This document shows, in pieces, positions 2,394-63,737 of a stretch of DNA of 64,000 nt. Each line of letters starts with the position of its first letter. Within the stretch, counting starts at the first letter, position 1. The stretch is taken from positions 1 to 64,000 of IMG/VR virus record IMGVR_UViG_3300030101_002616; one strand, 5' to 3'. The position numbers and the translations under genes were made by a program. This DNA is from a virus. Under the pieces are notes generated by a model. The model did no database searches. It saw only the letters and a list, made by a program, of their open reading frames with translations, and was not told where the DNA came from.

Positions 2394-2423
2394 TTGGTGG
2401 TTAAAAATTTTTTAGTAGTTTTG
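2394..2423 (+). promoter_or_regulatory. Bacteroidetes-type promoter
   Basis: TTG at 2394-2396 (within TTTTG), then 19 bases, then TAGTTTTG at 2416-2423. Both boxes and the spacing match the -33/-7 promoter of Bacteroidetes. Transcription would start near 2430 and run rightward, about 350 bases ahead of the first gene, so it would make either a long leader or a small RNA. Confidence 0.6.
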
Positions 2424-2719
2424 CATTCAGAAGCACACAATATGTGTATCACCCCAGAGGGCCGAGAGGTAGTTATGGGGTCAGACGTTGGATTGTAGAT
2501 CTTAAATAAAGATTAGAGTTTTCTCCAATAGCTTCTAAAAAGGCGGATATAGCCAACGGTTAGGGCACATTACACACAGGTAGGTGTGATGAATTAACAT
2601 CAGTATTAGTGTCCTTAGGTAGTCCAAAAGACAGCACTGCCAGCGGTAAAATTCCAACTGAAATTAGCAAATCTCCTAGGGTCTTCCTATATCCATATGT
2701 GAAGTTATTTACAAAACAC

Positions 2720-2751
2720 TTGCATTTGTAAATTATTTTATTATACCTTTG
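2720..2751 (+). promoter_or_regulatory. Bacteroidetes-type promoter for the GroES-led operon
   Basis: TTG at 2720-2722 and TACCTTTG at 2744-2751 with 21 bases between, in very AT-rich sequence. The predicted transcript starts near 2758, about 20 bases before the GroES-like start codon. It is well placed to drive the whole rightward block. Confidence 0.65.
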
Positions 2752-7113: not shown

Positions 7114-7190
7114 TGTTATATTTATAATAGTATATATAAAAGATGTATACAGAGTAGAACAAGGTATTAATTTAATTAATTTTGCAAGAT

Positions 7191-36054: not shown

Positions 36055-37011
36055 ATGGCAGTATATAAGAACATATCAAGTAAAATGATTATACGTAAAG
36101 TTATGCGTGACTTGCGTCCTAATCATGCAGAATGGATAGATGATGCGGTAGAGTGGATAGGTGAGGCCTTAGAGCATATAGGAGCTGCATCACAACTTTG
36201 TCAAAAGCAATGCGTGCTTACAATAGAAGATCACAAAGCATGTTTGCCTGGAGACTTATACTTTATAAATCAAGTAGCAGTTAATGGTACTGTCGGCACT
36301 TCTGCAAGTGATGAGCTTGATGTTCTTACAGAGCAAGTTAGAAAACTCAGAGCTGACATAGCAGAATACAACTCAACATTAGAAGAAGATGTAGCTAACA
36401 ATGGAGCTAACATTACTAACGCAGATTTAACTACATATGATACACAATATAAATCAAATGTAACAGAACTTAGAGAGCTAATTAGTAGGATAACCGTTTT
36501 AGAGGGGATATATTTTAATACTAAGGGTGGGGGTGCTGGCCTAGAACCATTACGTTATGGGGCTAGCACTTTCCATAGCTCTATGCACTGCGACGATTGT
36601 ATTAATGAGCATGCACTAAACAATGAAAGTTATATAATAGATTGTGATTTTATAAAAACATCTTTTGCTAGTGGTAAGGTATGTATAAGCTATACAGCTT
36701 TTCCTATTGATGAAGATTGTTTTCCAATGATACCAGATGACATAAGTTATAAAGAAGCTATGTTCTGGTATATATACAAGCAAATGTTGTTAGGTGGATA
36801 TGATAAACCTAACAATAGAATAGATTATAACTTTGCTGATCAGAAATGGAAGTACTATTGTACTCAAGCTAGAAACGCTGCAAACTACCCAGATATTGAA
36901 AGATATGAATCTTATATGAATCAGTGGGTTAGACTTATACCAGATATTAATGCACACGATTGCTTCTTTGAATACCTAAATCATAGAGAAGATTTGAATA
37001 GAAATTACTAA
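36055..37011 (+). CDS. crAss-like ring/connector protein (318 aa)
   Basis: I start at ATG 36055 (MAVYKNISSKMIIRKVMRDL); an earlier in-frame start would overlap the previous gene. The N-terminus (RPNHAEWIDDAVEWIGEALE, HIGAASQLCQKQCVLTIEDH) and the closing half (YKEAMFWYIYKQMLLGGYDK) are familiar from crAss-like head-tail ring proteins; a coiled-coil insert (EQVRKLRADIAEYNSTLEED) may line the tail. It immediately precedes the muzzle-type gene, as in other crAss-like phages (TAATG overlap). Confidence 0.65.
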   Translation: MAVYKNISSKMIIRKVMRDLRPNHAEWIDDAVEWIGEALEHIGAASQLCQKQCVLTIEDHKACLPGDLYFINQVAVNGTVGTSASDELDVLTEQVRKLRADIAEYNSTLEEDVANNGANITNADLTTYDTQYKSNVTELRELISRITVLEGIYFNTKGGGAGLEPLRYGASTFHSSMHCDDCINEHALNNESYIIDCDFIKTSFASGKVCISYTAFPIDEDCFPMIPDDISYKEAMFWYIYKQMLLGGYDKPNNRIDYNFADQKWKYYCTQARNAANYPDIERYESYMNQWVRLIPDINAHDCFFEYLNHREDLNRNY

Positions 37012-41933: not shown

Positions 41934-41935
41934 TT

Positions 41936-46009: not shown

Positions 46010-48392
46010 GTTAAGACCATATGTTAGTGTTTATAGAGATCCAGGATCTGTACAAATAAACACACTACAAAGACAAAAGTTTCAACAAGCGTTTAATGCT
46101 GATGATGCTTTAGCAGGTGCAGTAGATCAAATGAAGGCTGCAGAATTTGAGGGAGATAAAGCTCTTAAAATGGAACTTGAACAAAACACTAGAGGTCAAT
46201 TACAAGACAGAGCGGGTCGTGGTGATTATGAAACTATGACGATGGACGTAGCTAAAAGTGCAAGAAATTTTGAGCAGCAGTATGCCCCTATAAATGCTAA
46301 CTATGAAATATATCAAAACTATAAAAAAACTTTAGATGAGGATTACAAGAAAGGTGACATAGATGCATTTACTTATAGAAGATCTTTAGATGCATCCAAG
46401 TATAACTATGAAGGGTTACAAAAGAATGAAGATGGAAGTATAGATGATGGTAGCTACTTTAAAGGGTATAACTATGTAAAGGATGTAGACATACAAGGAA
46501 AAATGTCTGAACTAATGAAAGATCATGCTGTTAAAAAATATGGCAAAGATGTGCAAGTAATTAGTGAGGATGGTAACTACTATATTACTGATGGGTTTTC
46601 AAGAGAAACTATACCTGACACTGAGGTAGCTATGGTATTTAACAATCTTATTGCTCAACCTGATGTAGCTGCTTATCTTAATCAAAAGGCAGAGTTAAGT
46701 ACTTTTGATATGACAGATGAGGATATTAGAAGTTCTCTAACTCGTAAACTGTATGGAGATGATGATCCAGAATCAGAAGACAAAGGTCTAATAGGACTGA
46801 GAGATAAAGCTATAGCTGCTGGAGATGATAAGTTAGCAGCTGACTACGATGTAATGATAAAAGAAGCTCAAGGCCTTTTACAAAATGCAGGCGTAGAAAC
46901 TGAAGATGAAATGATTGCTAAGCGTAGAGACTATATCAAAGGTTCAGTTTTACAATCTGAAGCAAAAAGAGAACTAGATGTATCTATAACTAGATTTGCA
47001 TTTGATAATAGAGAGGTTAACAAAGCAATAAAGTATAGTGAAAAGTGGACAGCAGATTATGGCAAGTTCTTAGATATTTATCAGCCAGACATCTTAAAGA
47101 GAACTGGTGTTAGTGAGATAAGCAATCCTGGTGGAAACAATCCTTCAGCAATAAATGATTATATAAACGGACAGCTTCAAATAGAAGTAAATGAAGTAAA
47201 TGCGTTTAATACTTTATACGCTGATGTATTAAAAGGTAGAAAGGTAACTGCTGAAGACATACTAAGTGGTAATGTGCCTGATGAACTTAAACAAGGAGAT
47301 GTATATCAGAAACATAGAGATAAAATAATTCTATCCAGAACTCAAAGGTATCTGCAAAACAATCTATTAGACAAGGCAGACAAAGAAGCAGGAAGCGAAT
47401 TTAAAGAAGAATTCTTAACTAGTAATTTAGATAGAAATGACCTTACTGGTCAAGACTTACTAGAGAAAGCTAGAGAAGTAACTGGAAATAGTAACCTAAC
47501 TTTAATTGAGCTTGGATCTATAATGTCAGATGCTGCAGAACTTACTGCTTACAGCACTCGAAGAAGTGAAGCTATTAGTTTTGCTGCGGGAGACACTAAA
47601 ACTGAAGAAGAGTTGAATAAACTTAGAAAGTCTAGAGATATTAAGAATCAAATATATGATGCACTTAATATAAGTAATTTCCAACAAGCTGGTATAACAA
47701 GCTCATTTAGAGACTTAACTGATAAATATACAGATGGCGTAGAGGATTGGTTAGAAAATAATGCTAAGATTAATGTGGGAGATTGGACAGCAAACAACTT
47801 CCCAGCTTTAGATAATCCTGCAAAAATTGCAGAAGTTACAGCTTATGTAAAACAATACTTTACTGGTAATGATAAAGGAGGAGGAGCAGGTAAGCCACTA
47901 GATCCAACATTTAAGATTTTCTATGATGGTAAAAAACAAGAAGGCACAGGAACTGTTGGAAGCTTCTTAGAAGATATGGAGTGGAAGAGTAAAGATGTAA
48001 AGGTTGTAGATGTAATGTTTGATCAAACTCCTTACATGGGAGAACCTACACTTCAATTAACAGTTAAAGGTGAAGAAGGGGAGTCTGGAGTTATTATACT
48101 ACCATATAGTAATATACAAAATGATCAGATGGATCAGTACTTCCAACTTCCTGGATTTAGATTACAGCAAGAGCTTATGATGCATAAACAAGCTAGGGCA
48201 GATAATGCTACTATAGGTTTATATGATAAAAAGACTGGAGCATTGGCAAGTCAAATGACTGTAACTTTTGATACAGACAGAGGAGATGTAGCATTAATAG
48301 ATGGTAATTATTATCGTTTAGGTAGTAAGGAATTCTTGAAAATGATGGACAGTAACGCAGCTAATTTTGAGTTCAGAACAATAACATATTAG
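45996..48392 (+). CDS. cargo-like internal virion protein (798 aa)
   Basis: I start at ATG 45996 (MSRYKLRPYVSVYRDPGSVQ) because this is a typical opening of such proteins and the longer frame would lie inside the previous gene. It is helical and highly charged throughout (NYKKTLDEDYKKGDIDAFTY), with a small beta domain near the end (PTLQLTVKGEEGESGVIILP). No enzyme motif is seen. Its place between the muzzle and the polymerase marks it as a likely ejected protein. Confidence 0.6.
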   Translation: MSRYKLRPYVSVYRDPGSVQINTLQRQKFQQAFNADDALAGAVDQMKAAEFEGDKALKMELEQNTRGQLQDRAGRGDYETMTMDVAKSARNFEQQYAPINANYEIYQNYKKTLDEDYKKGDIDAFTYRRSLDASKYNYEGLQKNEDGSIDDGSYFKGYNYVKDVDIQGKMSELMKDHAVKKYGKDVQVISEDGNYYITDGFSRETIPDTEVAMVFNNLIAQPDVAAYLNQKAELSTFDMTDEDIRSSLTRKLYGDDDPESEDKGLIGLRDKAIAAGDDKLAADYDVMIKEAQGLLQNAGVETEDEMIAKRRDYIKGSVLQSEAKRELDVSITRFAFDNREVNKAIKYSEKWTADYGKFLDIYQPDILKRTGVSEISNPGGNNPSAINDYINGQLQIEVNEVNAFNTLYADVLKGRKVTAEDILSGNVPDELKQGDVYQKHRDKIILSRTQRYLQNNLLDKADKEAGSEFKEEFLTSNLDRNDLTGQDLLEKAREVTGNSNLTLIELGSIMSDAAELTAYSTRRSEAISFAAGDTKTEEELNKLRKSRDIKNQIYDALNISNFQQAGITSSFRDLTDKYTDGVEDWLENNAKINVGDWTANNFPALDNPAKIAEVTAYVKQYFTGNDKGGGAGKPLDPTFKIFYDGKKQEGTGTVGSFLEDMEWKSKDVKVVDVMFDQTPYMGEPTLQLTVKGEEGESGVIILPYSNIQNDQMDQYFQLPGFRLQQELMMHKQARADNATIGLYDKKTGALASQMTVTFDTDRGDVALIDGNYYRLGSKEFLKMMDSNAANFEFRTITY

Positions 48393-48393
48393 A

Positions 48394-51300
48394 ATGTCAG
48401 AAGAAATTAATCCATTAACCCAACTGCCATATGATGGCGACGCTACAATAGATGCCACTTCTGGTACTGCTGTAGAAATAAATCCTCTAACAAAGCAGGC
48501 CTATGCTCCAACTACCTCTTATGAGAGTAAAATGAATCAACGTGGACTATCTACTATCTATCAAGATGATCGTGACATAGATCGTTTTAGAAAGTATAAT
48601 GTTCCTAGAGGACAGCTGTTAGACTGGGAAGAGATTCGAGCTATGAATCAAACTACTGCAGATAAGTGGGGTAATGGTTTAGCAAAGATGGGGGTTACCG
48701 CTTTAGGAGCTGCAGCAGAAAATACTTTAGGTATACTATTTGGTCTAGGTGAAATGGCATTTGGTAGTGGTGTTTACTATGATAATACGGTAGGTAAAGC
48801 TGTAGATAATACAAATGCTTGGATGCAGGAAAACATGCCTAACTACTACACAAGAGAAGAACAGAACATGAGCACTTTCAGTAAGCTAGGAACTGCAAAC
48901 TTTTGGGCAGATACTTTTGCAAATGGGATAGGATACTCTTTAGGTTCTATTGCATCTATGTATCTTACAGGAGGTAGAGGAATAATAGGTCTAGGTGCTA
49001 AAGGTGTACAGGCTTTAAGTAAAGCTAAACAAGCAAAAGCACTATACGATTCTACAAAAGCTGTTATAAATGGAACTAAACTGTCAAGACAGTTAAGTAA
49101 AGGGGCCAGCGCATTATCAAAATTTAAAAGACATGGGCAGGTATTAGATGCAGGTCTTATGATGTCTTTAGGAGAAGCTTCTGTAGAGGCAAGACAAAAT
49201 CTTAATGATACAAGAGAAGCGCTGTTAGCTATTCATATGGAAAGAGAGGGTATTACAGACCCTGCAGATGTATCCGCAGAAGATAGAAGAGAGATAGAAA
49301 GAATAGCCATTGCTTCAGGCAACACACACTTTGCAGCTCAACTACCAGTTCTTATGGGCACTAATCTAATGATGTTTGGTAAACAGGTATCAGGATTTAG
49401 AGCTGCTCAAAGAGCTAGTAAAGATGTATCATTCATTGAGGCAACTCGTAAAGCTGTAAGTAAATATGCTAATGATGGTTTTTGGAAGGGCACGGCAAGA
49501 AGACTTACACCTGCAGCTAAAAATGCTGCGGAAGAGGCTTTCCAAGAAGGTTTTCAATTTGCATCAGGAGTATTTGCTAGTAACTATCACACTGCAAAAT
49601 ATAAAAACAATGGTGTAGGAGATATGATGGCTGCATTAAATGAATCATTATCTGAGACATTTGGATCACAAGAAGGTTTAGAATCTATATTAGTTGGAGC
49701 TTTGACTGGTAAAGTAATGGGAGCAGGTCAATCTATACTTAGTAAAGAGGTATCTACTAGAAAGGCAAACGCTCAAAGACTAGCTGACTTTATCAATGCT
49801 GGACTTCTTGACAATGTTCAAAATTCAATAATAAACTCTTCAGCACAGTCTGATGCAATGAAAAGAATGCAAGCCGCATTAGAGCGTAATGATCACAAAG
49901 CTTTTAAAGATGCACAGTTTGACCTTATATCTTACAACGCACTATATGCTTTAGAAACTGGAGGATTTGAACTGTTCAAAGAAAAGCTAGAAGATTCTAA
50001 GAATCTATCTGATGAAGAGTTTGCAAAACAGTTTAACATTACAGACAAGAATGGAGATCCATTAGATATTGTAAAGGCTACTGGAAAAACCAAAGCAAAA
50101 ACCATTGAAGATTTACAAAAGAAACTTGACAACTTTGAAAAAATATATAATAATGTAAGTGATAGATTTGCATTGCCAGATAAAACTAGTGGACTGCCTA
50201 GAGCTCTGATGTCTGAAGAACAAAGAAAAGCTGAGGACCAAACATATGAGAATAGAGCTAGATTACGTAATCAGTTAATATTATCAGGGGCTGCACTACA
50301 AGATAGAAATCGTAGAATGGAAAGCATCCAGGATAACATGTCAGAGATTATTGCAAACTCTTTGGCAGGTATTGGTGCTACAGGTAGAGACAAGTTAAAC
50401 ATAGATAAGATTCTTAATGAGTTTTCTATATTCCAAACAGAGCCCGGTGAAGCTGATGCTAAGGACTATGATCCAGACGCAAGATTTCAAAAGCTAAGAG
50501 AAAACTTATTAACTGCTATTGCAGAAGTAAGTAGGATAGATCCTATTGCTGCAGAGGCTTTAACAGAGCAGGCAAAAGATTATGTAGCTCTGGCCCAAGA
50601 AACAATAGAAGGACTAGATACTTACAATAAACTTGCATCAGATCCATATGCACAAGCAGAGTTTCAAAGACGAACAGAGGAACAAGAAAAAGCAACACAG
50701 GCTAGAGAGCGTGCTAAGATGTTAAAGGAGAAGACAGATAAAGCAGAGACATCTGATGACATGAACGAAGCATTAAAAGATGCAACAGATGATGAGTCTA
50801 GAGTACATCTTAAGAAAAAGAATGAGCTTATAGCGAAAGAGAACAGTCTTAAAAAAGACTTTATTGCTAAGGCTAAAGGTGCAACTCGTAAAGAAAAGAT
50901 AGAAGACTTAGAAAAGAAAGATAAAACTAAGCTAACTCCTATACAAAAGAAAGCACTTAACTTAGCTATTGGAGAGTTGAAGAGACAAGATCAAGCTCAA
51001 CAGGTAGATAAAGTAGAAGTAAAACCAGTAGACAATTCAGAAGACAATCTAGCACAAGAGGATCAAGGTACCCAGAATGTAGAAGAAGCATTTAATCCTG
51101 ATAATATAGGAAAGATAGAAGCTGTATCTGAAGACGGTAGAACATTCCAAATAGATGGTGAAAACTTTTACAATAGATTTGACAATCCTTTAGATGCTGT
51201 AAAAAGAGATGGTGCAACAGATGAAATCTATGCAGTAGTTCTTGAGGATGAGGATGGTAATACACATACAATACAAGGTCCTGAGTCTAGAGTAGACGCT

Positions 51301-53742
51301 CTTGCATATGGTATAATCATGTCAGAGTTATACAAAATAGAAGGTCAGACTACCTTAGACAGAGAAGCAGCTGAAATAAATGAAAACGCAATAGCTGAAA
51401 AAACTGATAAACTTGCTAAAACAGGTGTGCATGGTAAGAAAAATGATGCAACTCTTAGGTACGAAATATATAAACTTAGAAGACTACAAGAGGCTTTATT
51501 AGAAAACAGAGACATAATAAGAACCTTGATGATTCAAGACGGCGCATCTAAAACAAAATTAAAAAACGATCGTGCTTTAAAAAGAATGTCTAAGAAGAAT
51601 AGATCTTTAGCTAAACAAATCAGTGATAGAAAAAAAGTTCTTAGAGCTAGAGGGAAGTCAATTGGATTAAATCCTAATGAGTTTATAATGGTAGAGGGTC
51701 AAGCTATTGATGCTATTAAAGATACTGAGAAGTTAATACGAGATACTAAGAATGATATTACACGATTAGAGAAAGATGTAGAGCAACTAACTCAAGACAG
51801 AGAAAGATATATAGAGGGTAGGGATACAGAGTCTGCAGAGGCTGCAGCTAGAGATTTACAAGTAGCACAACAAGAGTTAGAAGATAGAAAAAAAGATTTA
51901 GCTGAAGGTAAAGCTATCTTAGAACTAGAAAAAAATAATTTAAAAAGATTACAAAATGAAGAAGAAGGTAGGATTCCAAGAGATGCAGAACAAGTTGCCG
52001 AAGGAAGTACAGGAGAAGCTAAAAGGAAAGTCGATGAAGGAGAAGATTCAAATAGGGCTGAAGCTGTTGAAGAAGAGGGGACTCCTGTAGAAGAAACTGC
52101 AGAGCCCAGAGATGTAGATGAGAAGGCTATAGAAAAATCATTGAATGATAAACAGTCTGTAGATAAAGCTAAAACACCTGCCAGTACTGCTGCGCCTGGT
52201 GTGCCTCTAAAAGATGATGAGGTAGTTGTAGATAGAGTACAGCTAATGCCTCCTGCAGAAGGACCAACACTTGGTGAAGCTTTACAACAAGAAGCAAAGC
52301 CCCCCGTACAGGGTGACAACCTTCCAATGAAAAGTGCAATGGATGATCCTACTATTGGAAGAGGAGATACAAAAATACGTGTAAATGAAGAAGGTATACC
52401 CTTTGATAATACAGATGAGCTTGAACAAAGAATGGGTCTTAAAAGCTTACGTGTTGGGGATGAGGTAGAGTTTGTAATAATAGAAAACGACTTCTTTGTA
52501 GAAAACCATAAAGGTAAAGATACTGAGTTAGAATACTTACCAATATACTATCAAAAGAATGGTGTAATATTAGGTAAGCTACAGAGATCTACTAGTCAAG
52601 AAAAAGCTGAAATAGTAAGAAGACTTCGTGCGGGAGAGAGAGTAACAACTAGAGTATCCGAAGTATTTGCTCCTAACTACAACAATGCAAGAATGTCTAC
52701 ACCAGACGGCACTGTAAAATACTTCTATGATCCTAGAGAAAGTTTAGGACAACAACCAATACTTGTATTCTCTGTTGTAGATGAAGATATACAGCAGCTA
52801 GTTGCACCACAAGATCCAGATGTAAACCTATCTTCAATAGATACTAGTAACATAGGAACAGGTCAAGTAGCATTTTTAATACCAAGTTCTGAGGTCCCCG
52901 GTGGACAAACAACTATATCTGTAGGTAGTACAGCTACACTTTCCTCAGCAGCGGTAGATACCACTATTGACCTTCTATCAAAAGGAGACTTAGAAGGAGC
53001 TGCAGAAATAGTTGCAACTAGTTCAGAAGTAGATAGAACATTATCATCAACAAAACGATCACATCTAGAGCTTTTAGAATTTAAGACAGAGGAGCAGGTA
53101 GTAGACAAAGTAGATTTAACTACTGGACAAAGTGTTGCATCTTCTGCCCCTGATAACAAAAGTATAGTATACTATAGTCCTACTGCAAACAGACTAGTAA
53201 AAATTTCAAATAACAACTTTAAAAAAGCAATAGCAAATCAACCTTTTAAATTAAGTTTTGTTGAGGTTGTTGATGGTCAGTATAAAACTAAAGGTGCTCC
53301 GGATGCAGAGTACAATAAAGTAAAAGATAATTTTCAAAAAGATTTTAGAGATCTTCTAAGTTCAAAAAAATATCAAGTTAGTAGAGATAGAATGCAAGCA
53401 GGTAACGCTCCATATACTAGCCGTGTAACTGGTAATAGATATGATAGTTATACTGACTATCTTTTTTCTCTTGAAGAAGGAGCAGTTAGAGAACAGGGAG
53501 CGCTAGGTCATAACTCTATACTTGCAACAGACTTAGTTAGAACAGCTGGTGGATTATTCCATAACCCTGTAGTATCATTTGCAAAAGAAGACATCTTTGG
53601 TAAGAGTACAGAACAAATTTCAGAAAATGTTACCTTTGCATCTTCACCTGAATCTACTGGTAAAACATTTAAAAATAAAATGGCGTCTCCATTTAGAGGT
53701 GATACAGCCAGAGAAGATTTTGATAACGACTGTAAACTATAA
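48394..53742 (+). CDS. giant cargo-like virion protein (1782 aa)
   Basis: Hydrophobic segments near residues 98-123 (ALGAAAENTLGILFGLGEMA) and 178-200 (IGYSLGSIASMYLTGG) suggest membrane insertion on ejection. A long Ala/Glu/Lys helical middle includes a coiled coil (about residues 1105-1190; TEKLIRDTKND-like heptads are visible), then a Pro/Glu-rich linker, then a compact C-terminal domain. It directly precedes the RNA polymerase gene (3-base gap), as in crAss-like phages, where neighbours are packed and ejected together. No catalytic motif recognised. Confidence 0.6.
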   Translation: MSEEINPLTQLPYDGDATIDATSGTAVEINPLTKQAYAPTTSYESKMNQRGLSTIYQDDRDIDRFRKYNVPRGQLLDWEEIRAMNQTTADKWGNGLAKMGVTALGAAAENTLGILFGLGEMAFGSGVYYDNTVGKAVDNTNAWMQENMPNYYTREEQNMSTFSKLGTANFWADTFANGIGYSLGSIASMYLTGGRGIIGLGAKGVQALSKAKQAKALYDSTKAVINGTKLSRQLSKGASALSKFKRHGQVLDAGLMMSLGEASVEARQNLNDTREALLAIHMEREGITDPADVSAEDRREIERIAIASGNTHFAAQLPVLMGTNLMMFGKQVSGFRAAQRASKDVSFIEATRKAVSKYANDGFWKGTARRLTPAAKNAAEEAFQEGFQFASGVFASNYHTAKYKNNGVGDMMAALNESLSETFGSQEGLESILVGALTGKVMGAGQSILSKEVSTRKANAQRLADFINAGLLDNVQNSIINSSAQSDAMKRMQAALERNDHKAFKDAQFDLISYNALYALETGGFELFKEKLEDSKNLSDEEFAKQFNITDKNGDPLDIVKATGKTKAKTIEDLQKKLDNFEKIYNNVSDRFALPDKTSGLPRALMSEEQRKAEDQTYENRARLRNQLILSGAALQDRNRRMESIQDNMSEIIANSLAGIGATGRDKLNIDKILNEFSIFQTEPGEADAKDYDPDARFQKLRENLLTAIAEVSRIDPIAAEALTEQAKDYVALAQETIEGLDTYNKLASDPYAQAEFQRRTEEQEKATQARERAKMLKEKTDKAETSDDMNEALKDATDDESRVHLKKKNELIAKENSLKKDFIAKAKGATRKEKIEDLEKKDKTKLTPIQKKALNLAIGELKRQDQAQQVDKVEVKPVDNSEDNLAQEDQGTQNVEEAFNPDNIGKIEAVSEDGRTFQIDGENFYNRFDNPLDAVKRDGATDEIYAVVLEDEDGNTHTIQGPESRVDALAYGIIMSELYKIEGQTTLDREAAEINENAIAEKTDKLAKTGVHGKKNDATLRYEIYKLRRLQEALLENRDIIRTLMIQDGASKTKLKNDRALKRMSKKNRSLAKQISDRKKVLRARGKSIGLNPNEFIMVEGQAIDAIKDTEKLIRDTKNDITRLEKDVEQLTQDRERYIEGRDTESAEAAARDLQVAQQELEDRKKDLAEGKAILELEKNNLKRLQNEEEGRIPRDAEQVAEGSTGEAKRKVDEGEDSNRAEAVEEEGTPVEETAEPRDVDEKAIEKSLNDKQSVDKAKTPASTAAPGVPLKDDEVVVDRVQLMPPAEGPTLGEALQQEAKPPVQGDNLPMKSAMDDPTIGRGDTKIRVNEEGIPFDNTDELEQRMGLKSLRVGDEVEFVIIENDFFVENHKGKDTELEYLPIYYQKNGVILGKLQRSTSQEKAEIVRRLRAGERVTTRVSEVFAPNYNNARMSTPDGTVKYFYDPRESLGQQPILVFSVVDEDIQQLVAPQDPDVNLSSIDTSNIGTGQVAFLIPSSEVPGGQTTISVGSTATLSSAAVDTTIDLLSKGDLEGAAEIVATSSEVDRTLSSTKRSHLELLEFKTEEQVVDKVDLTTGQSVASSAPDNKSIVYYSPTANRLVKISNNNFKKAIANQPFKLSFVEVVDGQYKTKGAPDAEYNKVKDNFQKDFRDLLSSKKYQVSRDRMQAGNAPYTSRVTGNRYDSYTDYLFSLEEGAVREQGALGHNSILATDLVRTAGGLFHNPVVSFAKEDIFGKSTEQISENVTFASSPESTGKTFKNKMASPFRGDTAREDFDNDCKL

Positions 53743-53745
53743 TAT

Positions 53746-56700
53746 ATGGCTTGTAGATATATAAGAAATAAAAACAATAACATTACTAGTGCTATAGCTC
53801 CTAATGGACAAAGATCAAAGTTGTTTGATTCTTTAGCTACTGCTACAGGTAACATAGATTCTGCTAGAAGTGTATATGAAAATCTTTATACAAAACGTGG
53901 TAAAGAATTATATGGTGCTGATTTTGAAAACTTTGAAAAGTCACAAGACTTTTTAACTACTGATGACAACGGTGAGCCTATACTAGCAGCTGGTAATGGT
54001 TTTTACTATATATTAAAAAAGAATGGTAAAGATAGAATAGTATTAAATTTAAAAAGACCAGTTAGACAGGTATCAAGTAACCTAAGCTTTGAGGAAGAGC
54101 GTGAGATAATTGATACCGCTATTAGTTTTGTAAATGATTTACGTGCACAGAACCCAGAATACTTCAAAGATCCTAAAAAAGTTACACAGTTTTTTAATGA
54201 AAGCAAAGGTAGCAAAGGTATACTAGCAGAGATAATAGCTACAGAAGCTTTTGATGGTATACCAAATACTAAAGAGGGTAGAGAGTTAGCTGTAAGTTTA
54301 GTAAAGATTGGAAAAGAGCGGGGAGAACAAGCAATGTTAGATGCGCTCCCTGAAGGAGTTACATTGATAACTAAAAACGATAGGGGATATGTAATGCTTA
54401 GTGTGTATGACAACTGGAGTGATGAAATTGCAGATGATGGTACAGGTAACTTATCTAAAAAAGGATGGCGTTCCACTATACAAGAAGGTCTAGAAGAGTA
54501 TGGACTAGTTCTACGAGATGATATTGGACAACTATTTGACATAGATGATACCCCAATACGTATACATGATGTATCTAGACTAGAAGAAAATCCAAAAGAT
54601 AAACTATCTACTACAGTAAAAGCAATTCTTACAGATATTAGAAAGACAGAACCAAACTCGTTAGGATACTTTACAGCAATACCCTTAGATGAAATTTATG
54701 CAGATATGGCTGAAGCTACTGTTAATCAGCCTGATTTTAATAAGCAACTTACAAGACTAGAGTTTATGTCTAAGTATAAACCTAATCTTGTTCCTGTGGT
54801 AGAAACACTAAAAAGATTGGATAGAGAAGGACAAGCTGCAGTCTTTGCAAACTTTGCTAATTCTTATAAAAACTTTATACAGTTTAAAACTAGAGTAGAA
54901 GTAAAAGAATCTGGAACACGAAGTATAATAGAAATGTTTCCTTCTAATCGATCTAACACAGCGCGTATAGCTGCGACAAGATGGAATAGACAAGCTGCAA
55001 AGGACAGAGCTCCTAATGATAGAGCTCTATATCAATTAGATGAGGATGGAAAGAGAAACGTAATAGATAGTAAAAAGTCTGCTGCAACTACAGCCTATGA
55101 AAAACTATCAAAGTATGAAAATGTAAGAAGTATTCCTAATAATGGGATACAGCTAAATCAAGATGGAAACCCTGTTTTAACTGAAGAACTTGATGCTATA
55201 GTAGAAAATCTAAATGATATGCTGTATAATATGAGCATACAATATGGGCCTACAAAAGAAGCATCTGCAGAAAATCTTAAGAAATATTTTACAATAGGAG
55301 AACCTAGAAAAAATGGATTTGATTTATATAAAGATTTTGTTGCACCTCCTGGAGGAGCATTACAGCTGCAGAAGTTAATAAAAAGAATTAATAAGAATGA
55401 AGATATATTCACAAAAGATAGAGATATAATAAAACATCTAGCATCTATTACTCCATATTTTAAAACACAAGCAGCAGATTCTTTTCTAAGTGGTGCAGGT
55501 AAAACATATTATCCTATTAATCAGTTAACTACTTTGGATGAAATAGTTAATCATGTTAGGTCAGAAGAGTTTACTAAGACAGTAGAAGATTTTCAGAATA
55601 CTAGACTTTTTAATCCTAGCAGTGTAGAAACTAACTATAGATCTCAGTTCTTGTTTGCATTAGCAACCAACGATACATTTAAAGCTAAGTTTATGTCTGA
55701 GGTTCTTGACTCTACAAAAACAGCTAATGATTTTGGTATAGGACAAGACTACGAAAGTCAAAACAATAGAACATCTCTTATAGCTAGACTAAATGCATTT
55801 GCTAACAATGAAGATAAAACAGCATTTAAACTAGCGGTATCTACACAGGCAGATAGAAAGCGTATGGATTTTGTTACTATGATAAGAATAGACAAATTAC
55901 CTATTAGTCAGAGAGAAGCTATTAAAGCATTAATAGTTCAAGACCTTGCGGTAATGGATAAAGCAAATCAAGATATTGCTGAGATGCCTGCAAACGAATT
56001 AATAAAGGGATACCACTATCTTACAGAACCGCAAGCAGCAGACGGCCCTGTATTTACTATGCCTCAGATAGGATTTTTAAAAGGAGACTATACTTCTGAG
56101 TTACGAGACAACATGACTCCGTATCTAGATGGAACACTTGATGAAACAACTAAGGCTAGAATAGATCAAGAAATAGAGTCGCTAGTTGATAAAGTATATA
56201 AACAGTTAGATGTTTATTACGATGGCTTAGTATCTGAGATGAGACGTTTAGATATAGATAATAAAGAGCTAAGAAGCAGTATTAGAAATGAGGCAGATCT
56301 AAAAAATTTCATAATAAATGATTTCTATGGTAGAATAGAGTTTAATAAACTTTCCCGTGGCGGTATGTCATTTGCTCAAAAAGGACCTAAAGATTATTAC
56401 AAACGTATGAAGGGTATTAATACTCCTGGTACAAAACTAGCAATAAAAGGAAGCTTGGATGCAGATCCTAACTATGGCATGATGCCTACCTATAATGCTA
56501 TTACTATAGCTAAATTAGATTTTCAGGACCGTGCAAAAGCATTAAAAATTGCAGATGACATAAATAATAATCTTCAGGATGCAGGTCTAACAGAGACAGA
56601 AGCAAATGAGATAGCTTTACAATATGGAAGTGTAGATAAAGGTGATGCGCAGAGTTTTATATCTCTGGATATGTACCGAGGTATCATGGAAGGAATGGGA

Positions 56701-59700
56701 GAGTATGGTCCTAAAGATATAGAAGCATATAACAATCATGAAAGTACAGATCCAACCAACCCTAACGCAGGTAGGTATGTAGATAATCAGGGCAATGCTA
56801 GACCATTACGCCCAGTAAAACCATACGCTGAAGAGTTAACAGTTAGAAATGGTATACCGGTTCTAACCATGGATAAAAACTCTTATGTAACTATAACTAA
56901 AGAACTAGCTGCAGAGTATCCACAACTAGAAAAGATGCGTTCTATTATGGCTAGTCAAGACATACAGGTGGTGCATGAAGAGAATGCAACTAAAGGCGGA
57001 CGTAAAGATGTAAGAGATTTGTATACTAATGACTTACAAAACTTAACACCTATGACAATGGATTCTAGTAAACTTAGATTACCATCCATAGAAAGAGATA
57101 AGAAGACTGGAGAGATAACATTCTCTAGACAGATCCGTAAAAACGTAATAGCTAACTGGCAATTACCGTTAGATGAATTTGTAGAGTATCAATCCCTAGT
57201 ATCAGAAAATATTCAAGAAGACACTAAAAAGTTAGAAGATGAGCTAGGCATAACCAAGTTAAGAAATGCTATAAAAAATAATAATGTAGAAGCTATAGCT
57301 GATGCTAAACTAGCCTACTTACAAAAACTTAGAGACAAGTTAAGATCCGCTGTAAAAGAAAGAGGATTACCTGACTCTTACATAGGCGCACTAAACATTG
57401 TACCAAACGGATCGTTTGACTACAGATTTGACATACCGCTAGCATTCCCTAACTACCAAGCTAAGTTTGAACAGATATTTTTTAGTCTGTTTAATAATGG
57501 TATATTCAAACAAAAACTAAAAGGTAAAGAACTAGTTCAGATAGCAGAAGCTGGTGGACATGCGGTTGACAGTGAACTAGAGATGTACAATGGTACCAAG
57601 CCTGCACAAGTAATGATGCGTCGTAGTGATTTAGGTATCTCAGAAAATGAAAACATAGAAGAGCTTATAGCAAACAATGACCCAAGAATAAAAGTAATAG
57701 GATACCGTATACCTAACCAAGGTAAGAACTCTATGCTTCCAATGCAAGTAATACGCTTTTTACCTGAGTCACACGAGAAAGGAATAATTGTGCCGGGCGG
57801 TGTAACAAGGCAAATGGGTAGTGACTTTGATGTAGATAAGATGATTACTATACAAAGAGAAGAAGGGACTACTCCTAGAAACGAGCGTGATAAAAGAATA
57901 TTTGATATAATGTATAATTCAATCACAGCTAAAGAACATCTATCAGAAGTTCTAGATCCGCTAGATGGTGAACGTCTTAGAAACAAAGCAGCTGAAGTTG
58001 GTAGAGGAGAAAATGTTATAGACTATAACAACCCTCTATCAGAGCTTGATATGGAGATGCGTAATAAAGCAGGTATTAGACTAAGAGGTTCTTGGGCTAA
58101 CATGCTGGCAGGACACAATGTAGCACAAGCAGGTAACCTAAGAATAGATCCAGGCTATGCACCTATTATAGGAGGTACAACTTATGATAAACTAGGACAG
58201 GTATTTGAATTTGGTACAAAAAAATATAATACTGCTGCAATATCTGCTTATCTATCAGCGGCTGTAGATGCTGCAAACGATCCAATACAAGTAGATATAA
58301 ATGATAATGAGTTTACTGTGCCTGTAGCGGGTATGATGCTAAGCGCAGGAGTGCCGCTAGAAAACGTAATAGATTTCTTAACTCAACCTGCTATACTAGA
58401 AGTAATACAGCACGCAAGAGATAATAGTTACCACATGGGACAATTGTATAAATCTATGTCTGCAATTAGAAGACAAAGAAAGTTGCCAGCATCGGCTGAA
58501 ACTTCCTACAATATTTCATTACAAGAACTATCTGACAAATCAGAAGATACTCAAGCTAAGATGTTAGATAACTTCGAGTTATTCTATAAAGCAGGAATGT
58601 CTACAGCAAGAGCCTTTAAAGTAATAACACCTGATAACTTAGATAATCTAAATGAAATATCTTCTTTACGAGCTTGGTTAGATATAGAACAACAGTTTAC
58701 TACAAATCAAGATACTAATATTATTTATGGAGCTGAAGAGTTTGTAACTGAACTGCAGACAGGTAGAGAATCTGTATATCCAATACAAGTAGCATACCGA
58801 GGAATATTTAATACAATGCTAGGTGCGGCTGAAGAAGCTGGATTCATTAACAATAGACCTGCATTCTTTAGATTTAAAAACATACTAAAAAATAGTTTAT
58901 TACAAACTAGATTTAATTCTGAGCAACATAAGTTTATTGATAGAGCATTGTTTTTAAAGATAATGGGACACCCGGACAGTCCACTAGCAGACTATATGTC
59001 TAAGGATCGCTTTGAAAAATTATATACTGATCCTAATAACAACATAGCTATAAGACTAGACAATCTACAGAAGAGTGATAAACTATCAAACAATAGATTC
59101 TTTCAGTTATTAGAAGCTTCTGATACTAATAATGAAAAAGGTAATCCAGTGTTTACTATACAGTTAAACTCTAATTATGACATGACATCTCTAGAAAAAA
59201 ATACTTTGACAGTTGGATTCAAAGAGATGTTAGAAAGTAAAGACCCAGTTATAGCAGAGTTTGCAAAAGATTTAATAGCTAATCAACTAATGTCTACCGG
59301 ATTCCATCCTAGTAAAAACTCTTACATGGATCTAATACCACCGGAAGCATTTACAACTAGTATATTAAACTCAGCTATGGAAAGCCCTACCATGTTCTTT
59401 AATAAAATTCAAACTGAAACAATAGGACATGACTTCTATAATGACTTTGTTCACGATTTTATTCGTAACTTTGGAAGCGCAACGCCTGGCGGTGCTCCAC
59501 TGTTGCCCGTAGTTAGAAACAGAAATCTTAGTCCTAACAACGAAGGTTTAGTAAGAGTAGATAAAGTAAGAAACCCAAGTATATTTAATAAAACAAATGG
59601 GTATGCAGCCTACTTTATTACATATCCAAAAGGTGCGGCACCTAAAGTATATGTAAGAGTAAATGGAAACATATATCAAGAATTGCAAATGAAGGGAATA

Positions 59701-59871
59701 AAAGGAAAACTAAATGAAGTAGGTAGCACTGCAGAAAGAAGTTCTATAAATAAAACAGGCACAACAAGCATGCCAAACATGGATACTTACATTGCTAATG
59801 CTGTACAAGCTCCTACCCCAACAGATGTAGAACAACCAGTAGAACTAACTAAAGTTTGTAGAATAGGATAA
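53746..59871 (+). CDS. virion RNA polymerase, crAss-like (2041 aa)
   Basis: The key motif is DFDVD at residues 1360-1364 inside VTRQMGSDFDVDKMITIQRE. This is the acidic loop of a double-psi beta-barrel, which in the characterised polymerase of Cellulophaga crAss-like phage phi14:2 holds the catalytic metal. The N-terminus (ACRYIRNKNNNITSAIAPNG) and the preceding GYRIPNQGKNSMLPMQVIRF also fit. Length is similar to phi14:2's enzyme (about 2200 aa). It should be carried in the virion, ejected into the cell and transcribe early phage genes. A Mg2+-binding role of the Asp residues is inferred from the family. Its stop overlaps the next start (TAATG). Confidence 0.8.
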   Translation: MACRYIRNKNNNITSAIAPNGQRSKLFDSLATATGNIDSARSVYENLYTKRGKELYGADFENFEKSQDFLTTDDNGEPILAAGNGFYYILKKNGKDRIVLNLKRPVRQVSSNLSFEEEREIIDTAISFVNDLRAQNPEYFKDPKKVTQFFNESKGSKGILAEIIATEAFDGIPNTKEGRELAVSLVKIGKERGEQAMLDALPEGVTLITKNDRGYVMLSVYDNWSDEIADDGTGNLSKKGWRSTIQEGLEEYGLVLRDDIGQLFDIDDTPIRIHDVSRLEENPKDKLSTTVKAILTDIRKTEPNSLGYFTAIPLDEIYADMAEATVNQPDFNKQLTRLEFMSKYKPNLVPVVETLKRLDREGQAAVFANFANSYKNFIQFKTRVEVKESGTRSIIEMFPSNRSNTARIAATRWNRQAAKDRAPNDRALYQLDEDGKRNVIDSKKSAATTAYEKLSKYENVRSIPNNGIQLNQDGNPVLTEELDAIVENLNDMLYNMSIQYGPTKEASAENLKKYFTIGEPRKNGFDLYKDFVAPPGGALQLQKLIKRINKNEDIFTKDRDIIKHLASITPYFKTQAADSFLSGAGKTYYPINQLTTLDEIVNHVRSEEFTKTVEDFQNTRLFNPSSVETNYRSQFLFALATNDTFKAKFMSEVLDSTKTANDFGIGQDYESQNNRTSLIARLNAFANNEDKTAFKLAVSTQADRKRMDFVTMIRIDKLPISQREAIKALIVQDLAVMDKANQDIAEMPANELIKGYHYLTEPQAADGPVFTMPQIGFLKGDYTSELRDNMTPYLDGTLDETTKARIDQEIESLVDKVYKQLDVYYDGLVSEMRRLDIDNKELRSSIRNEADLKNFIINDFYGRIEFNKLSRGGMSFAQKGPKDYYKRMKGINTPGTKLAIKGSLDADPNYGMMPTYNAITIAKLDFQDRAKALKIADDINNNLQDAGLTETEANEIALQYGSVDKGDAQSFISLDMYRGIMEGMGEYGPKDIEAYNNHESTDPTNPNAGRYVDNQGNARPLRPVKPYAEELTVRNGIPVLTMDKNSYVTITKELAAEYPQLEKMRSIMASQDIQVVHEENATKGGRKDVRDLYTNDLQNLTPMTMDSSKLRLPSIERDKKTGEITFSRQIRKNVIANWQLPLDEFVEYQSLVSENIQEDTKKLEDELGITKLRNAIKNNNVEAIADAKLAYLQKLRDKLRSAVKERGLPDSYIGALNIVPNGSFDYRFDIPLAFPNYQAKFEQIFFSLFNNGIFKQKLKGKELVQIAEAGGHAVDSELEMYNGTKPAQVMMRRSDLGISENENIEELIANNDPRIKVIGYRIPNQGKNSMLPMQVIRFLPESHEKGIIVPGGVTRQMGSDFDVDKMITIQREEGTTPRNERDKRIFDIMYNSITAKEHLSEVLDPLDGERLRNKAAEVGRGENVIDYNNPLSELDMEMRNKAGIRLRGSWANMLAGHNVAQAGNLRIDPGYAPIIGGTTYDKLGQVFEFGTKKYNTAAISAYLSAAVDAANDPIQVDINDNEFTVPVAGMMLSAGVPLENVIDFLTQPAILEVIQHARDNSYHMGQLYKSMSAIRRQRKLPASAETSYNISLQELSDKSEDTQAKMLDNFELFYKAGMSTARAFKVITPDNLDNLNEISSLRAWLDIEQQFTTNQDTNIIYGAEEFVTELQTGRESVYPIQVAYRGIFNTMLGAAEEAGFINNRPAFFRFKNILKNSLLQTRFNSEQHKFIDRALFLKIMGHPDSPLADYMSKDRFEKLYTDPNNNIAIRLDNLQKSDKLSNNRFFQLLEASDTNNEKGNPVFTIQLNSNYDMTSLEKNTLTVGFKEMLESKDPVIAEFAKDLIANQLMSTGFHPSKNSYMDLIPPEAFTTSILNSAMESPTMFFNKIQTETIGHDFYNDFVHDFIRNFGSATPGGAPLLPVVRNRNLSPNNEGLVRVDKVRNPSIFNKTNGYAAYFITYPKGAAPKVYVRVNGNIYQELQMKGIKGKLNEVGSTAERSSINKTGTTSMPNMDTYIANAVQAPTPTDVEQPVELTKVCRIG

Positions 59872-62800
59872 TGGCAAAAAAATGTAGCATACAAGTCAAT
59901 GGACAAGAGCATATAATGCTAACACAGTTAGCTGATTATATAGATAACTCTGAACCAAACTCTAGAAGTATAGAAAAAGTAGTAGACATACTAAAAGAAG
60001 GTAAAGGTATAACTAGTGTTCAAGGCGTGCCTGGACTGTTTGTTACTGAAGATCAAAGAAAAGATATTAAGTTAATTAATAGTCAGGGCATGGTGCCAGG
60101 GTTAATTGATGTAAAGTACTTTGAATCAATTGCACAGGGACCAGATGGTAGTCCTACAAATATATATAAGATAGAAGTTAATGATAATATTCTACAACAA
60201 AGACCTAAAGTAGGAGACTCAAACTCTAACTTTAACTATAATAATCAGTATGAGCTAGATCAGTTTAATAGACTAAGCGCTGATAAAAAATCTACACAGA
60301 CTACAGAAAAAGAAATACCAGATAAACCAGAATCTCCTAAAGTATACAGTACAAATGCGCAAGCACAAAACGAACTGCAACAGCTAGCACTAGATGCAAA
60401 AATTATTATTGAAGCACAGCTGCAAGAAGTAAAAGGCTTACCAGATGAAATGCGCGAGAAAAAAGAAATAAGACTTAAAAGATTACAAGCAGCTGTAGAT
60501 AAAATTAAAAGAGCTGATGATTTCTTCATGTTTGTGGTAGCTAATAGGGACAATATAAACAATGCTGTAGAGGAGTTTAATTCTATAATGGCATTACCTA
60601 TAGAAGAAAGAGCTAAGCCTAAAAACATGAATCGAATGTATGAAATTAAAAATACACTTGATAGTGTGGATACGCTTGTAAAACTTAAACAAGTTGTAAT
60701 AGATCAAATAGGATTAGGTCAACAAGGAAGGCTGCAAGAAATATTAGATAATATAAAAAACACAATAGATAAAGCAGAAGAATTAGATAATAGTTTTGAA
60801 AGAGAGATTATACCTATCATGGCAGAGGTATTAGTAGGGTACCATAACCAAGCCATAGATCCAAAGATTGATTCAATAATAAAAAACATAGAAAAGTTTG
60901 GGGACTGGAGAAGATTCAAATCAGAAGTTGATACAACTAATGAATACAAAGAGTTAGAGGAAAGATTAAAAGACGGAAAGATAACAACGCAAGGATTTGA
61001 AGAAGCTGCAAAAAGAATGACCTTAGATAGTTTTAAAAACAGAAAGATCCTAGGCAGAGATAAGTTAATAAAAGAAATGACAGCGGCGCACAAAGATAAA
61101 AGTGCGTTTTCGTATTACTTTGATCCGTTAATATATTCATCTGAGGCTGCAATACAATTGTTTACTAAGTCTGTAAAAGAAGCAACGTTCAAGAAAAATG
61201 AAATGACTCTTGATTTTAAGTACATACTTAAAGAGGAGTATGATGCATTTACCGAGGGTATGAATGAAACGCAGATAGCTAAACTAAATGATGATCTACT
61301 AGAAGTTGTCACATATTATAGAAGAGACGCAAATGGAGATATAAGTTCAACGGAGCTACTATCTTTAGTGCACCCGCTATTAATAAATAAGTTCAACGAG
61401 GACAGAATAAAAATGCGAGAGCGTCTAAATAAAAAATACAATAGACCTCAAAGAGAAGATTATACAAGTAAAGCAGAATATGGTGAAGCAAATGCAGCTT
61501 GGGATAGATCTAAAAACAGAACTCTATATTACAAAGCAGAGCAGAAATGGATTCAAGAAAATACTGAACCAATTGAAGGATGGGAAAAAGAAATAGCCAA
61601 ACTTAATAGAGAAATAGGAGAGGCAGAAAAAACATTACAGAAAGCAAAGGCCGCAGGACGTAGTGATGCAGAGTATAATGCTATGCAACAAATAAAAGAA
61701 ACAAGAAAAGCTATACGCTCTATGATAAATCCTGTAACAGGTAAACCCAAAGGGCCTTTAGTAAAACCAAAAACTTCTGTATATACTAATCCAAAGTATA
61801 CTGCCATACAGAACGATCCTAGAAAGAAAAGATATTATGACTTTACTTTAAAATCTCTCAGAGAAACTCAACAAATGATTGGTAAAAAGAGAATGAGAAG
61901 TCAAGTATACGATGAGTATTCATATCTAATGCCTTCAATACGTAAAAATGATTTTGATCGTGCTATGGAACAAGGTCTAGTAGCATCAGCAAAAGAATTA
62001 TTATCAGATACATTTACAGTTCAAGAGACAGAAAAAGATGTATTTGGTAACTACAATGAGCAGACAGGAGAGCTACAACAAGCAGTTCCAGTATTCTATA
62101 CCAACGAGGTAGATCATAAAGATATATCAAAAGATATAGCTAGTAGTCTATATCAATTTAGAGATATGGCAAACAACTATGTAACTAAAAATGAAATAGT
62201 AGGACAAGTTATGTTGTTTAGAGATATACTAAAAAACAGAGATACTATGGAAGTGGATGCTGGAGGTGTTGCATATCTAAGTGGTATAGCAAACAAGTTA
62301 GGCGTAAAACTTCCTGCTAAAAAAGCTGGTGAGTCATATACGTTTAAGCACGTTGATGCTTTCATAGATACAATAATGTTTGGGCAAAGAGAGTTAAAAG
62401 AAAACTTTAAAATATTTGGAAAAGAAATATCTGCAAACAAATTTGCTAATGCATTGAATGCTTTTGTAGCAATGAATACGTTATCATTTAACTTCTTGCA
62501 AGGTGCTAACCAAAGTATAATAGATAACATGGCTCTTATTAGTGAAGCAAACGCAGGTGAATTCTTTAGTCGTTCAGATCTAGCCTGGGCTAAGTCTCAG
62601 TATTGGTCTGAAGGTGCAGGATTATCTGACACTGGAAGATTCATACCTGACACAAAACTAGGTAAAGCATTAGAAATGTTCGACGCCTTAACAGAGTTTA
62701 CAGATCAAGAAGGTAGAAGATTAGTAGGGGGAAGATTACGTAAAGCGCTAGAAACAGGTAACTTATTAGTAGTACAGCAAGCAGCTGAACACGAAGTTGC

Positions 62801-63737
62801 AACTACCAGAATGTTAGCGCTGATGAAAAACTTAGAGGGAAAATTAAAGGATAAGGATGGTAATGTTATAAACAATGAAGATGGAAAGCCAGCTAATTTA
62901 TATGACTTACTATCAATAGATAAGAAGACAGGAAAAATGTCAGTAGATTCTAGAGTTGCAAACTTTAATAAGAGTGACTTTATAAATCTAGTGCAAGGAT
63001 TAGCTAGAAGAACTAACCAAACTAAGGGTGGATTTGACAGACCAACTGCACAAAGAATGTGGTATGGTAAACTAGCAATGCTATTCCGCAGCTGGCTAGT
63101 ACCCGGACTAAGACGTCGTTATGGACACGGAGGATTTACAGGCCCAACAGTGCATGCTGATGAAGAGTTAGGAACTGTAACTCAAGGTATGTACATATCA
63201 TTCTGGAACTTTTTACGTAAAAGTGTAGCAGATAGAGCATGGCCACATACTGTATTTGATCAACTAACTGAGATGGAGCAGCAAAATATAAAACGTACAG
63301 GAACAGAGTTTGGATCTTTAGCAGCAGCATTTGTTCTAATACAAGCCTTACAAAATCTAGATGATGATGAAGAAAACTTTGCAACAAACTTTTTACTGTA
63401 CCAAACATTAAGATACCAAGCAGAGATAGTACAATGGACTCCAGGTGTTGGAACTATGGAAGCTATTCGTATTTTAAAATCACCAACAGCAACAGCAAGA
63501 CACGTAGAAAAAGCTATTAAACTTTTTGGTCAAATTAAAGACGAAGGATTATATAATCTAGGATTCCCAATAGATGAAAAAGATATATTCTATCAAAGAG
63601 ATTCAGGACGTTATCAAAAAGGTGATAGAAAAATTAAAAAAAGTCTTGAAGATTTACTGCCAATACTCAGAGGTCTAAACAAAAGTAAGACCCCTGAAGA
63701 GGCAGCTCAATATTTCCTAGGAGGAACGTATAACTAA
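59871..63737 (+). CDS. giant cargo-like virion protein (1288 aa)
   Basis: The N-terminal 120 residues form a mixed domain (CSIQVNGQEHIMLTQLADYI). Then come long charged helices, then a C-terminal third with aromatic and basic segments (MLFRSWLVPGLRRRYGHGGF; FGSLAAAFVLIQALQNLDDD) that may touch membrane. No catalytic motif is seen. In crAss-like phages a large protein follows the polymerase and is packed with it; this is likely that protein. Its end overlaps the leftward gene's end by 3 bases. Confidence 0.6.
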   Translation: MAKKCSIQVNGQEHIMLTQLADYIDNSEPNSRSIEKVVDILKEGKGITSVQGVPGLFVTEDQRKDIKLINSQGMVPGLIDVKYFESIAQGPDGSPTNIYKIEVNDNILQQRPKVGDSNSNFNYNNQYELDQFNRLSADKKSTQTTEKEIPDKPESPKVYSTNAQAQNELQQLALDAKIIIEAQLQEVKGLPDEMREKKEIRLKRLQAAVDKIKRADDFFMFVVANRDNINNAVEEFNSIMALPIEERAKPKNMNRMYEIKNTLDSVDTLVKLKQVVIDQIGLGQQGRLQEILDNIKNTIDKAEELDNSFEREIIPIMAEVLVGYHNQAIDPKIDSIIKNIEKFGDWRRFKSEVDTTNEYKELEERLKDGKITTQGFEEAAKRMTLDSFKNRKILGRDKLIKEMTAAHKDKSAFSYYFDPLIYSSEAAIQLFTKSVKEATFKKNEMTLDFKYILKEEYDAFTEGMNETQIAKLNDDLLEVVTYYRRDANGDISSTELLSLVHPLLINKFNEDRIKMRERLNKKYNRPQREDYTSKAEYGEANAAWDRSKNRTLYYKAEQKWIQENTEPIEGWEKEIAKLNREIGEAEKTLQKAKAAGRSDAEYNAMQQIKETRKAIRSMINPVTGKPKGPLVKPKTSVYTNPKYTAIQNDPRKKRYYDFTLKSLRETQQMIGKKRMRSQVYDEYSYLMPSIRKNDFDRAMEQGLVASAKELLSDTFTVQETEKDVFGNYNEQTGELQQAVPVFYTNEVDHKDISKDIASSLYQFRDMANNYVTKNEIVGQVMLFRDILKNRDTMEVDAGGVAYLSGIANKLGVKLPAKKAGESYTFKHVDAFIDTIMFGQRELKENFKIFGKEISANKFANALNAFVAMNTLSFNFLQGANQSIIDNMALISEANAGEFFSRSDLAWAKSQYWSEGAGLSDTGRFIPDTKLGKALEMFDALTEFTDQEGRRLVGGRLRKALETGNLLVVQQAAEHEVATTRMLALMKNLEGKLKDKDGNVINNEDGKPANLYDLLSIDKKTGKMSVDSRVANFNKSDFINLVQGLARRTNQTKGGFDRPTAQRMWYGKLAMLFRSWLVPGLRRRYGHGGFTGPTVHADEELGTVTQGMYISFWNFLRKSVADRAWPHTVFDQLTEMEQQNIKRTGTEFGSLAAAFVLIQALQNLDDDEENFATNFLLYQTLRYQAEIVQWTPGVGTMEAIRILKSPTATARHVEKAIKLFGQIKDEGLYNLGFPIDEKDIFYQRDSGRYQKGDRKIKKSLEDLLPILRGLNKSKTPEEAAQYFLGGTYN

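Follow-up and report, generated by a model that had tools for sequence, protein, structure and literature searches.

The stretch of viral DNA analyzed here (the window; 64,000 nucleotides, bases 1–64000 of the 80,483-base IMG/VR virus record IMGVR_UViG_3300030101_002616) contains at positions 53746–59871 of the plus strand an open reading frame (ORF) for a protein of 2041 amino acids (aa), referred to as B. Its sequence and modeled fold identify B as the catalytic subunit of a crAss-like virion RNA polymerase, a new member of a known family. Its gene is flanked on the same strand by those of two predicted RNA-polymerase-associated cargo proteins, protein A upstream (48394–53742, 1782 aa), which occupies the same place as g067 of phage phi14:2, and protein C downstream (59871–63737, 1288 aa). 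The cysteines of A, B and C are confined to the chain ends that are consecutive in A-B-C order.

The ORF of B is intact, with an ATG at 53746 and a stop codon at 59869–59871. A phmmer search of PDB sequences returned a single relative, 6vr4_A (the phi14:2 DNA-dependent RNA polymerase; E 2.5e-25), which matched B in two stretches (residues 852–1402 and 1379–1555), with DFDVD of B aligned to DFDID. Since this chain was the only PDB relative and was found at such an E-value, the identification is not a chance result. By tblastn, 68 phage records matched B, mostly Bacteroides, Cellulophaga, crAss-like or uncultured phages, and neither Pfam nor PHROG yielded a polymerase match that could be used. 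A structure model of residues 840–1640, computed from 17 sequences with a mean predicted local distance difference test score of 71.7, resembled both 6vr4 (Foldseek E 2.7e-22; Z 21.3 over 679 residues) and QDE-1 (Z 13.4), and the assignment of the fold rests on these two. Cellular β′/Rpb1 chains aligned with Z of ∼6, which would be weak if taken alone, at model residues 416–568, a stretch that spans the DFDVD loop (model residues 521–525).

An earlier note on this DNA had recognized the polymerase by a DFDVD loop at residues 1360–1364, by its size and by its giant neighbors. The catalytic loop is indeed located there (57823–57837, plus strand), within a predicted double-psi barrel, the large neighboring ORFs are present (1640, 1357, 798, 1782 and 1288 aa), and the identification is borne out by the phmmer match, the fold, and the gene order shared with phi14:2. 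The structural match to a double-psi barrel, the absence of which would have refuted the reading of the note, was obtained, because the barrel-aligned stretch of the model includes DFDVD, and this region maps onto the barrels of 6vr4, QDE-1 and the β′/Rpb1 chains. The difference that the note drew between Val in this loop and Ile in phi14:2 is real, but it carries no information. In 17 aligned homologues (the window ORF and 16 others) DFD and the final D of the DFDxD motif are invariant, the remaining position is V, I or F, and a relative (G001) has Ile despite a terminase and a portal that are 97–98% identical to those of the window. Val versus Ile was therefore rejected as a marker.

Homology and the position of the gene in the rightward structural block suggest that B is packaged in the virion and ejected. 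According to the parts consulted of a review (PMC10136315), the phi14:2 virion polymerase transcribes early genes and is rifampicin-resistant, and by analogy the window polymerase would have the same early-gene role.

Cysteines at the facing ends of the cargo chains

The A, B and C proteins of the window together comprise 5111 aa and contain four cysteines, whereas 54 would be expected at the genome rate of 1.06% [P(≤4) = 1.4e-18]. All four are located no more than five residues from the ends that are consecutive in A-B-C order, and the three chains are otherwise cysteine-free. Cys1780 of 1782 at the end of A (codon computed at 53731–53733, plus strand, as are the following) faces Cys3 at the start of B (53752–53754), and Cys2038 of 2041 at the end of B (59857–59859) faces Cys5 of 1288 at the start of C (59883–59885). 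In the other genes of the genome, cysteine is present within the first 10 residues in 4/72 and within the last 10 in 5/72. The two proteins encoded directly before A (41936–46009 and 45996–48392) contain no cysteine at all, and the same genome also encodes cysteine-rich proteins on the plus strand, at 17119–21585 (53 cysteines in 1488 aa) and 26820–28829 (37 in 669 aa). In phi14:2 the pattern is identical, with cysteines at position 1797 of 1797 in g067, at positions 3 and 2179 of 2180 in g066, at position 3 of 1421 in g065, and nowhere else. This pattern is absent from the earlier note and was found in the present analysis. In the relatives that were gathered first, all A, B and C pieces inspected carry cysteine only near facing ends; an apparent extra cysteine in L007 arose from a sequence range that extended beyond its stop codon.

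The survey was then based on 151 loci, which comprised relatives, including those from three profile scans, and 16 phage-record regions. In 42 of them no ORF matched the polymerase pattern, and the 109 ORFs of the others were reduced to 87 by removal of cores that were ≥90% identical. Ends cut by contig borders were left uncounted (10 for the A start and 11 for the C end). Cysteine was present within 10 residues of the facing ends in 44/45 A ends, 43/45 B starts, 45/47 B ends and 47/47 C starts, compared with 0/35 A starts, 0/18 starts of fused AB, 1/29 ends of fused BC and 0/36 C ends. The pooled values are 179/184 for facing ends and 1/118 for outer ends (Fisher p 1e-76, with relatedness ignored). 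Both failing B starts have an upstream in-frame ATG, and the count becomes 45/45 if a later in-frame ATG is allowed. The positions are narrowly defined, with residue 3 used in 36/45 B starts and the next-to-last residue in 28/45 A ends. The only hit at an outer end is L129, with DKC as its last residues. The next protein starts with MCPN and matches the C profile described below, so that the end of L129 counts as a junction. In A of L177 and B of L166 the only cysteine is located 17 and 15 residues from the end, respectively. In L098 the polymerase is divided into two ORFs, and in L183 a 609-aa ORF separates the polymerase ORF, the end of which has no cysteine, from an open ORF that starts with MSKC. 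In some gut crassvirus loci (L084, L080 and others), TAG within the polymerase region is apparently translated as an amino acid.

When the 42 dropped loci were re-examined by profile, a polymerase core was found in 31 and none in 11. Of these 31 loci, 18 have a downstream ORF that matches the C profile, and cysteine is present at the start of all 18 ORFs (with a later ATG allowed). In these 18 loci the end of B clearly has cysteine in 16; for the remaining two, L172 and L187, TGA was translated as Trp, and their true ends are uncertain. Twelve long AB ORFs among the dropped loci start without cysteine.

Across the Crassvirales loci, a junction has the cysteine pair if the two consecutive chains are separate proteins and lacks it if they are fused. 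The C profile, built from 36 separate C proteins, was found in the downstream ORF of 46 of the 47 loci labeled with a split before C (the 36 that supplied the profile are included by construction) and within each of the 27 ORFs labeled A-split-BC or ?BC. Total A-B-C fusions, with matches to both A and C, were found in L140 (4895 aa, no cysteine), L142 (4799 aa, one) and L144 (5547 aa, three), and none of their cysteines is terminal. Two further total fusions, L126 (4732 aa, no cysteine) and L132, were identified with the C profile among the dropped loci, and L125 looks like the L126 sequence ending early. L069 combines both states: A and B are encoded by a single ORF of ≥2926 aa that is open at its 5′ end and lacks cysteine at the A-B junction, while the end of B and the start of C keep theirs. 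In L151 the train has four pieces. A carries Cys 1259/1260, an extra 288-aa car carries Cys 4 and 287 only, B carries Cys 5, 1336 and 3158/3158, and C carries Cys 3. An unrelated ORF is located between A and the extra car; the reading frame at ∼6933–7400 between these genes appears by eye to be ferritin- or Dps-like. On a tree of 86 polymerase cores (of 87 rows, one being too short, with L002 and L003, relatives of the window protein, standing in for it) at least four changes of fusion state were counted for B-C and at least five for A-B. The cores are deeply diverged, with a median end branch of 0.5 changes per column.

Proposed coupling of the cargo chains

The positional rule and its dependence on fusion were observed across the loci. 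The best explanation, which these sequence patterns make fairly probable, is that B is a virion polymerase that is carried together with A and C and joined to them end to end by terminal thiols, most likely as disulfides. The C-terminus of A would be paired with the N-terminus of B, and the C-terminus of B with the N-terminus of C. We give about an even chance to the broader proposition that in crassviruses A, B, C and in some cases a fourth chain are ejected as a train coupled by disulfides, from which the polymerase is released by cytoplasmic reduction, and that such couplings have repeatedly been interchanged with gene fusion. In such a mechanism the polymerase, A and C would be carried in the particle and enter the cell with the DNA, and early genes would be transcribed. 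The separate chains would act as one continuous thread of ∼5100 residues, stored in fixed order and in a 1:1:1 ratio, and this thread would be unfolded through the narrow tail in the order A, B, C. In phages with fused chains, the same order and ratio would follow from the fusion itself. Inside the cell, reducing conditions in the cytoplasm would separate the cars from one another and release the polymerase. In the parts consulted of a study of crAss001 virions (PMC10172136), disulfides between tail proteins are described, the cargo must partly unfold, gp45 is proposed to go first, and reduced and non-reduced samples were prepared for mass spectrometry. Thioredoxin-like genes are present near the cargo genes in several gut crassviruses, which is only suggestive.

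The same ends might instead be paired by a bound metal (a Zn-Cys cluster) or by non-covalent thiol contact, with the ends meeting in a folded complex and no thread. Zinc is commonly bound by cysteines, and the terminal cysteines of a three-chain phage number exactly four, but phages with one fused junction retain only two, too small a number for a Cys4 site within one train, and no conserved extra cysteine was seen near the ends (cysteine was the only ligand considered), so we regard this alternative as unlikely. We are equally doubtful that the terminal cysteines are sorting or packaging tags, each read singly by another virion protein rather than serving as mutual partners. Packaging signals are indeed required for ejected proteins, and the motifs found here are short and located at the termini (residue 3, next-to-last residue), but tags should then be present on every free end, whereas the outer ends are devoid of cysteine (0/35, 0/18, 1/29 and 0/36) and the inserted car of L151 carries it at both of its ends.

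Many of these genes abut or overlap, and the cysteines could be a by-product of nucleotide signals at tight junctions (start/stop overlap or ribosome binding). This is very improbable. The gene of A in crAss001 (gp47) lies apart from that of B and on the other strand, yet the protein still ends with its only cysteine (2339/2341), which shows that gene adjacency is not the cause. The A gene and the extra car of L151 are separated by an unrelated ORF, both cysteine codons are used at the ends of A and B (TGT 81, TGC 11), and other genes of the genome rarely have terminal cysteines, as given above. The first three of these observations indicate that the pattern follows chain order rather than gene adjacency. 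That an ancestral pattern was kept by accident and without function is hardly credible even though all loci are related, as the cores are deeply diverged and the cysteines have followed the repeated changes in fusion state.

Several observations weigh against coupling by terminal thiols. No bond between these ends was seen here or in the parts consulted of PMC10172136, PMC10136315 and PMC12633501. Because the particle is assembled in reducing cytoplasm, any disulfides would have to form at a late stage or once the cell has lysed. Gut relatives hold 1–26 internal cysteines in the polymerase ORF; a cysteine-free interior is thus not universal, and mispairing must be tolerated there. B of L167 has no cysteine within 10 residues of its end (the nearest is at ∼26), although a separate C matches the profile, and the ORF downstream of B in L166, which starts with MPARSC, does not match the C profile. 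At fused B-C junctions the boundary estimate is crude, and cysteine was found in 3/30 windows of ±40 residues compared with 6.2 expected, a count that retains some clearly misplaced estimates, such as those for L092, L111, L112 and L144. The cross-family homology of A is also weak, since outside its own clade the window-clade profile of A reached only Dulem virus 41 and crAss001 gp47, the latter at E 3e-20. By phmmer, no match between A and phi14:2 g067 was obtained. C is homologous to phi14:2 g065 (phmmer E 1.3e-31).

If thiol coupling is correct, it would represent a redox-releasable linkage of ejected proteins, of which no description was found, and it would bear on the question of how megadalton cargo is moved in correct sequence through the narrow tail of a phage. 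For the most abundant viruses of the human gut, the cysteine rule would supply the physical order A-B-C, the stoichiometry and a step of release, and, if the bonds are disulfides, single-residue handles on polymerase delivery. Our literature searches, which did not cover the main phi14:2 structure paper, found no account of terminal-cysteine coupling; the terminal cysteines may thus already have been noticed in that paper.

Leftward region and genome layout

The first 98 bases of the virus record are repeated at its end, and the genome is likely ∼80,383 bases long and circular or terminally redundant. Rightward genes occupy 2778–63737; among their products are a GroES-like protein, the terminase, the portal, the major head protein and the proteins of the cargo block. 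The latter also includes the other large proteins encoded at 37011–48392 on the plus strand, at 37011–41933 (1640 aa), 41936–46009 (1357 aa, with an endolysin-like part) and 45996–48392 (798 aa). Leftward genes (63734–80383 and 1–2299) encode a family A DNA polymerase, a DnaB-like helicase, a superfamily 2 helicase, a 5′-3′ exonuclease and a uracil-DNA glycosylase. Terminase, portal and major head protein were matched in PHROG (E 6.6e-129, 3.4e-126 and 1.5e-83, respectively), and by these crassvirus proteins the window phage belongs to the order Crassvirales. Its terminase is ∼40% identical to crassvirus terminases over 93–99%, and the best identities to named families are no higher. The cargo block (37011–63737) is 42–70% identical to that of G001 and G002, while most flanking structural and replication genes are 85–98% identical. 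Its synonymous divergence is mostly ∼1.0–1.6, with 0.53 for one protein in G001. By these sequence comparisons the block seems to have been exchanged as a unit. No tRNA was found in a scan of the window.

The leftward block that the earlier note placed at 1–2300 exists. The segment 1–2299 (minus strand) is the start of the leftward early/replication region and, because the ends of the record repeat, it forms the promoter-proximal end of a ∼19-kb leftward region that continues through 80383–63734. The repeat TTAACATTATTAACATT (≤2 mismatches) occurs four times on the minus strand, always within 1–1200, and never on the plus strand. It abuts start codons and is kept in G001, G002 and G005, although their polymerases are only 46–51% identical to that of the window. 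The AT-rich leaders that the note offered as polymerase promoters were not accepted as proven promoters, as such leaders also precede rightward genes and abut ATG. The segment 1–2299 with its leaders is a candidate target of the polymerase.

We also considered the motif TTG-N19..21-TAnnTTTG, which we take to be a host-type promoter. None was found on the leftward strand among the leaders in 1–2300. Elsewhere, two rightward and two leftward intergenic host-type promoter-like sites are present. The rightward sites are TTG-N19-TAGTTTTG at 2394–2423 (plus strand), upstream of a conserved RNA, and a site at 2720–2751 (plus strand), upstream of the GroES-like gene, which is the first of the rightward block. 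Host-type promoter-like sites are located within the leftward replication region, at ∼80146 and ∼67729 on the minus strand of G000, the former kept in G001, G002 and G005 and the latter in G002. The conservation of these sites implies that the host polymerase may also serve this region.

Between the first rightward site and the GroES-like gene, a highly conserved structured non-coding RNA is encoded at 2425–2700 (plus strand). An exact 24-mer of it occurs in 18 IMG/VR stretches, and its consensus from 11 sequences has 67 pairs, 11 of which are changed on both sides with pairing kept. When the window was compared with Rfam, no family reached the gathering threshold and relaxed searching gave nothing convincing, which leaves this RNA without an Rfam family. 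A second element of ∼58 nucleotides at ∼1483–1545 (minus strand), with an 8-bp outer stem and inner hairpins, is kept in G001, G002 and L044 at differing places among the early genes and likewise has no Rfam match. Some relatives (L036 at 6852–6914, minus strand, and also L041, L045, L048, L052 and L053) have a hammerhead-like ribozyme directly upstream of an early gene. It matched Rfam Hammerhead_3 at E 5e-4, under the gathering score, and in L053 one stem shows a compensatory change.

Comparison with known systems

Phage N4 also has a giant virion RNA polymerase that is ejected with the DNA, as described in PMC12633501. In the main text of that paper the terms cysteine and disulfide are absent.

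A close parallel is phi14:2, in which gp66 (PDB 6vr4), together with g067 and g065, shares with the window the DFDxD loop, the fold and the four terminal cysteines. The order g067-g066-g065 corresponds to A-B-C and is followed, as in the window, by convergent genes that include one for uracil-DNA glycosylase. The two polymerases are ∼25% identical over the matched third and differ in the loop (Val in the window, Ile in phi14:2), and the phi14:2 genome is larger (100 kb compared with 80 kb). In crAss001, gp47, gp50 and gp49 were reported as three RNA-polymerase-associated virion proteins on the basis of mass spectrometry (PMC10172136, parts consulted). All three have terminal cysteines like those of the window proteins, but the gene of A lies on the opposite strand, and one cysteine of B is internal. 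The same three modules are present in Intestiviridae (CrAssphage ZA, crAss002), in which B and C are fused, and in Suoliviridae (cr50_1, cr1_1), in which A and B are fused. In both families the cysteine pair is missing at the fused junction and kept at the split one.

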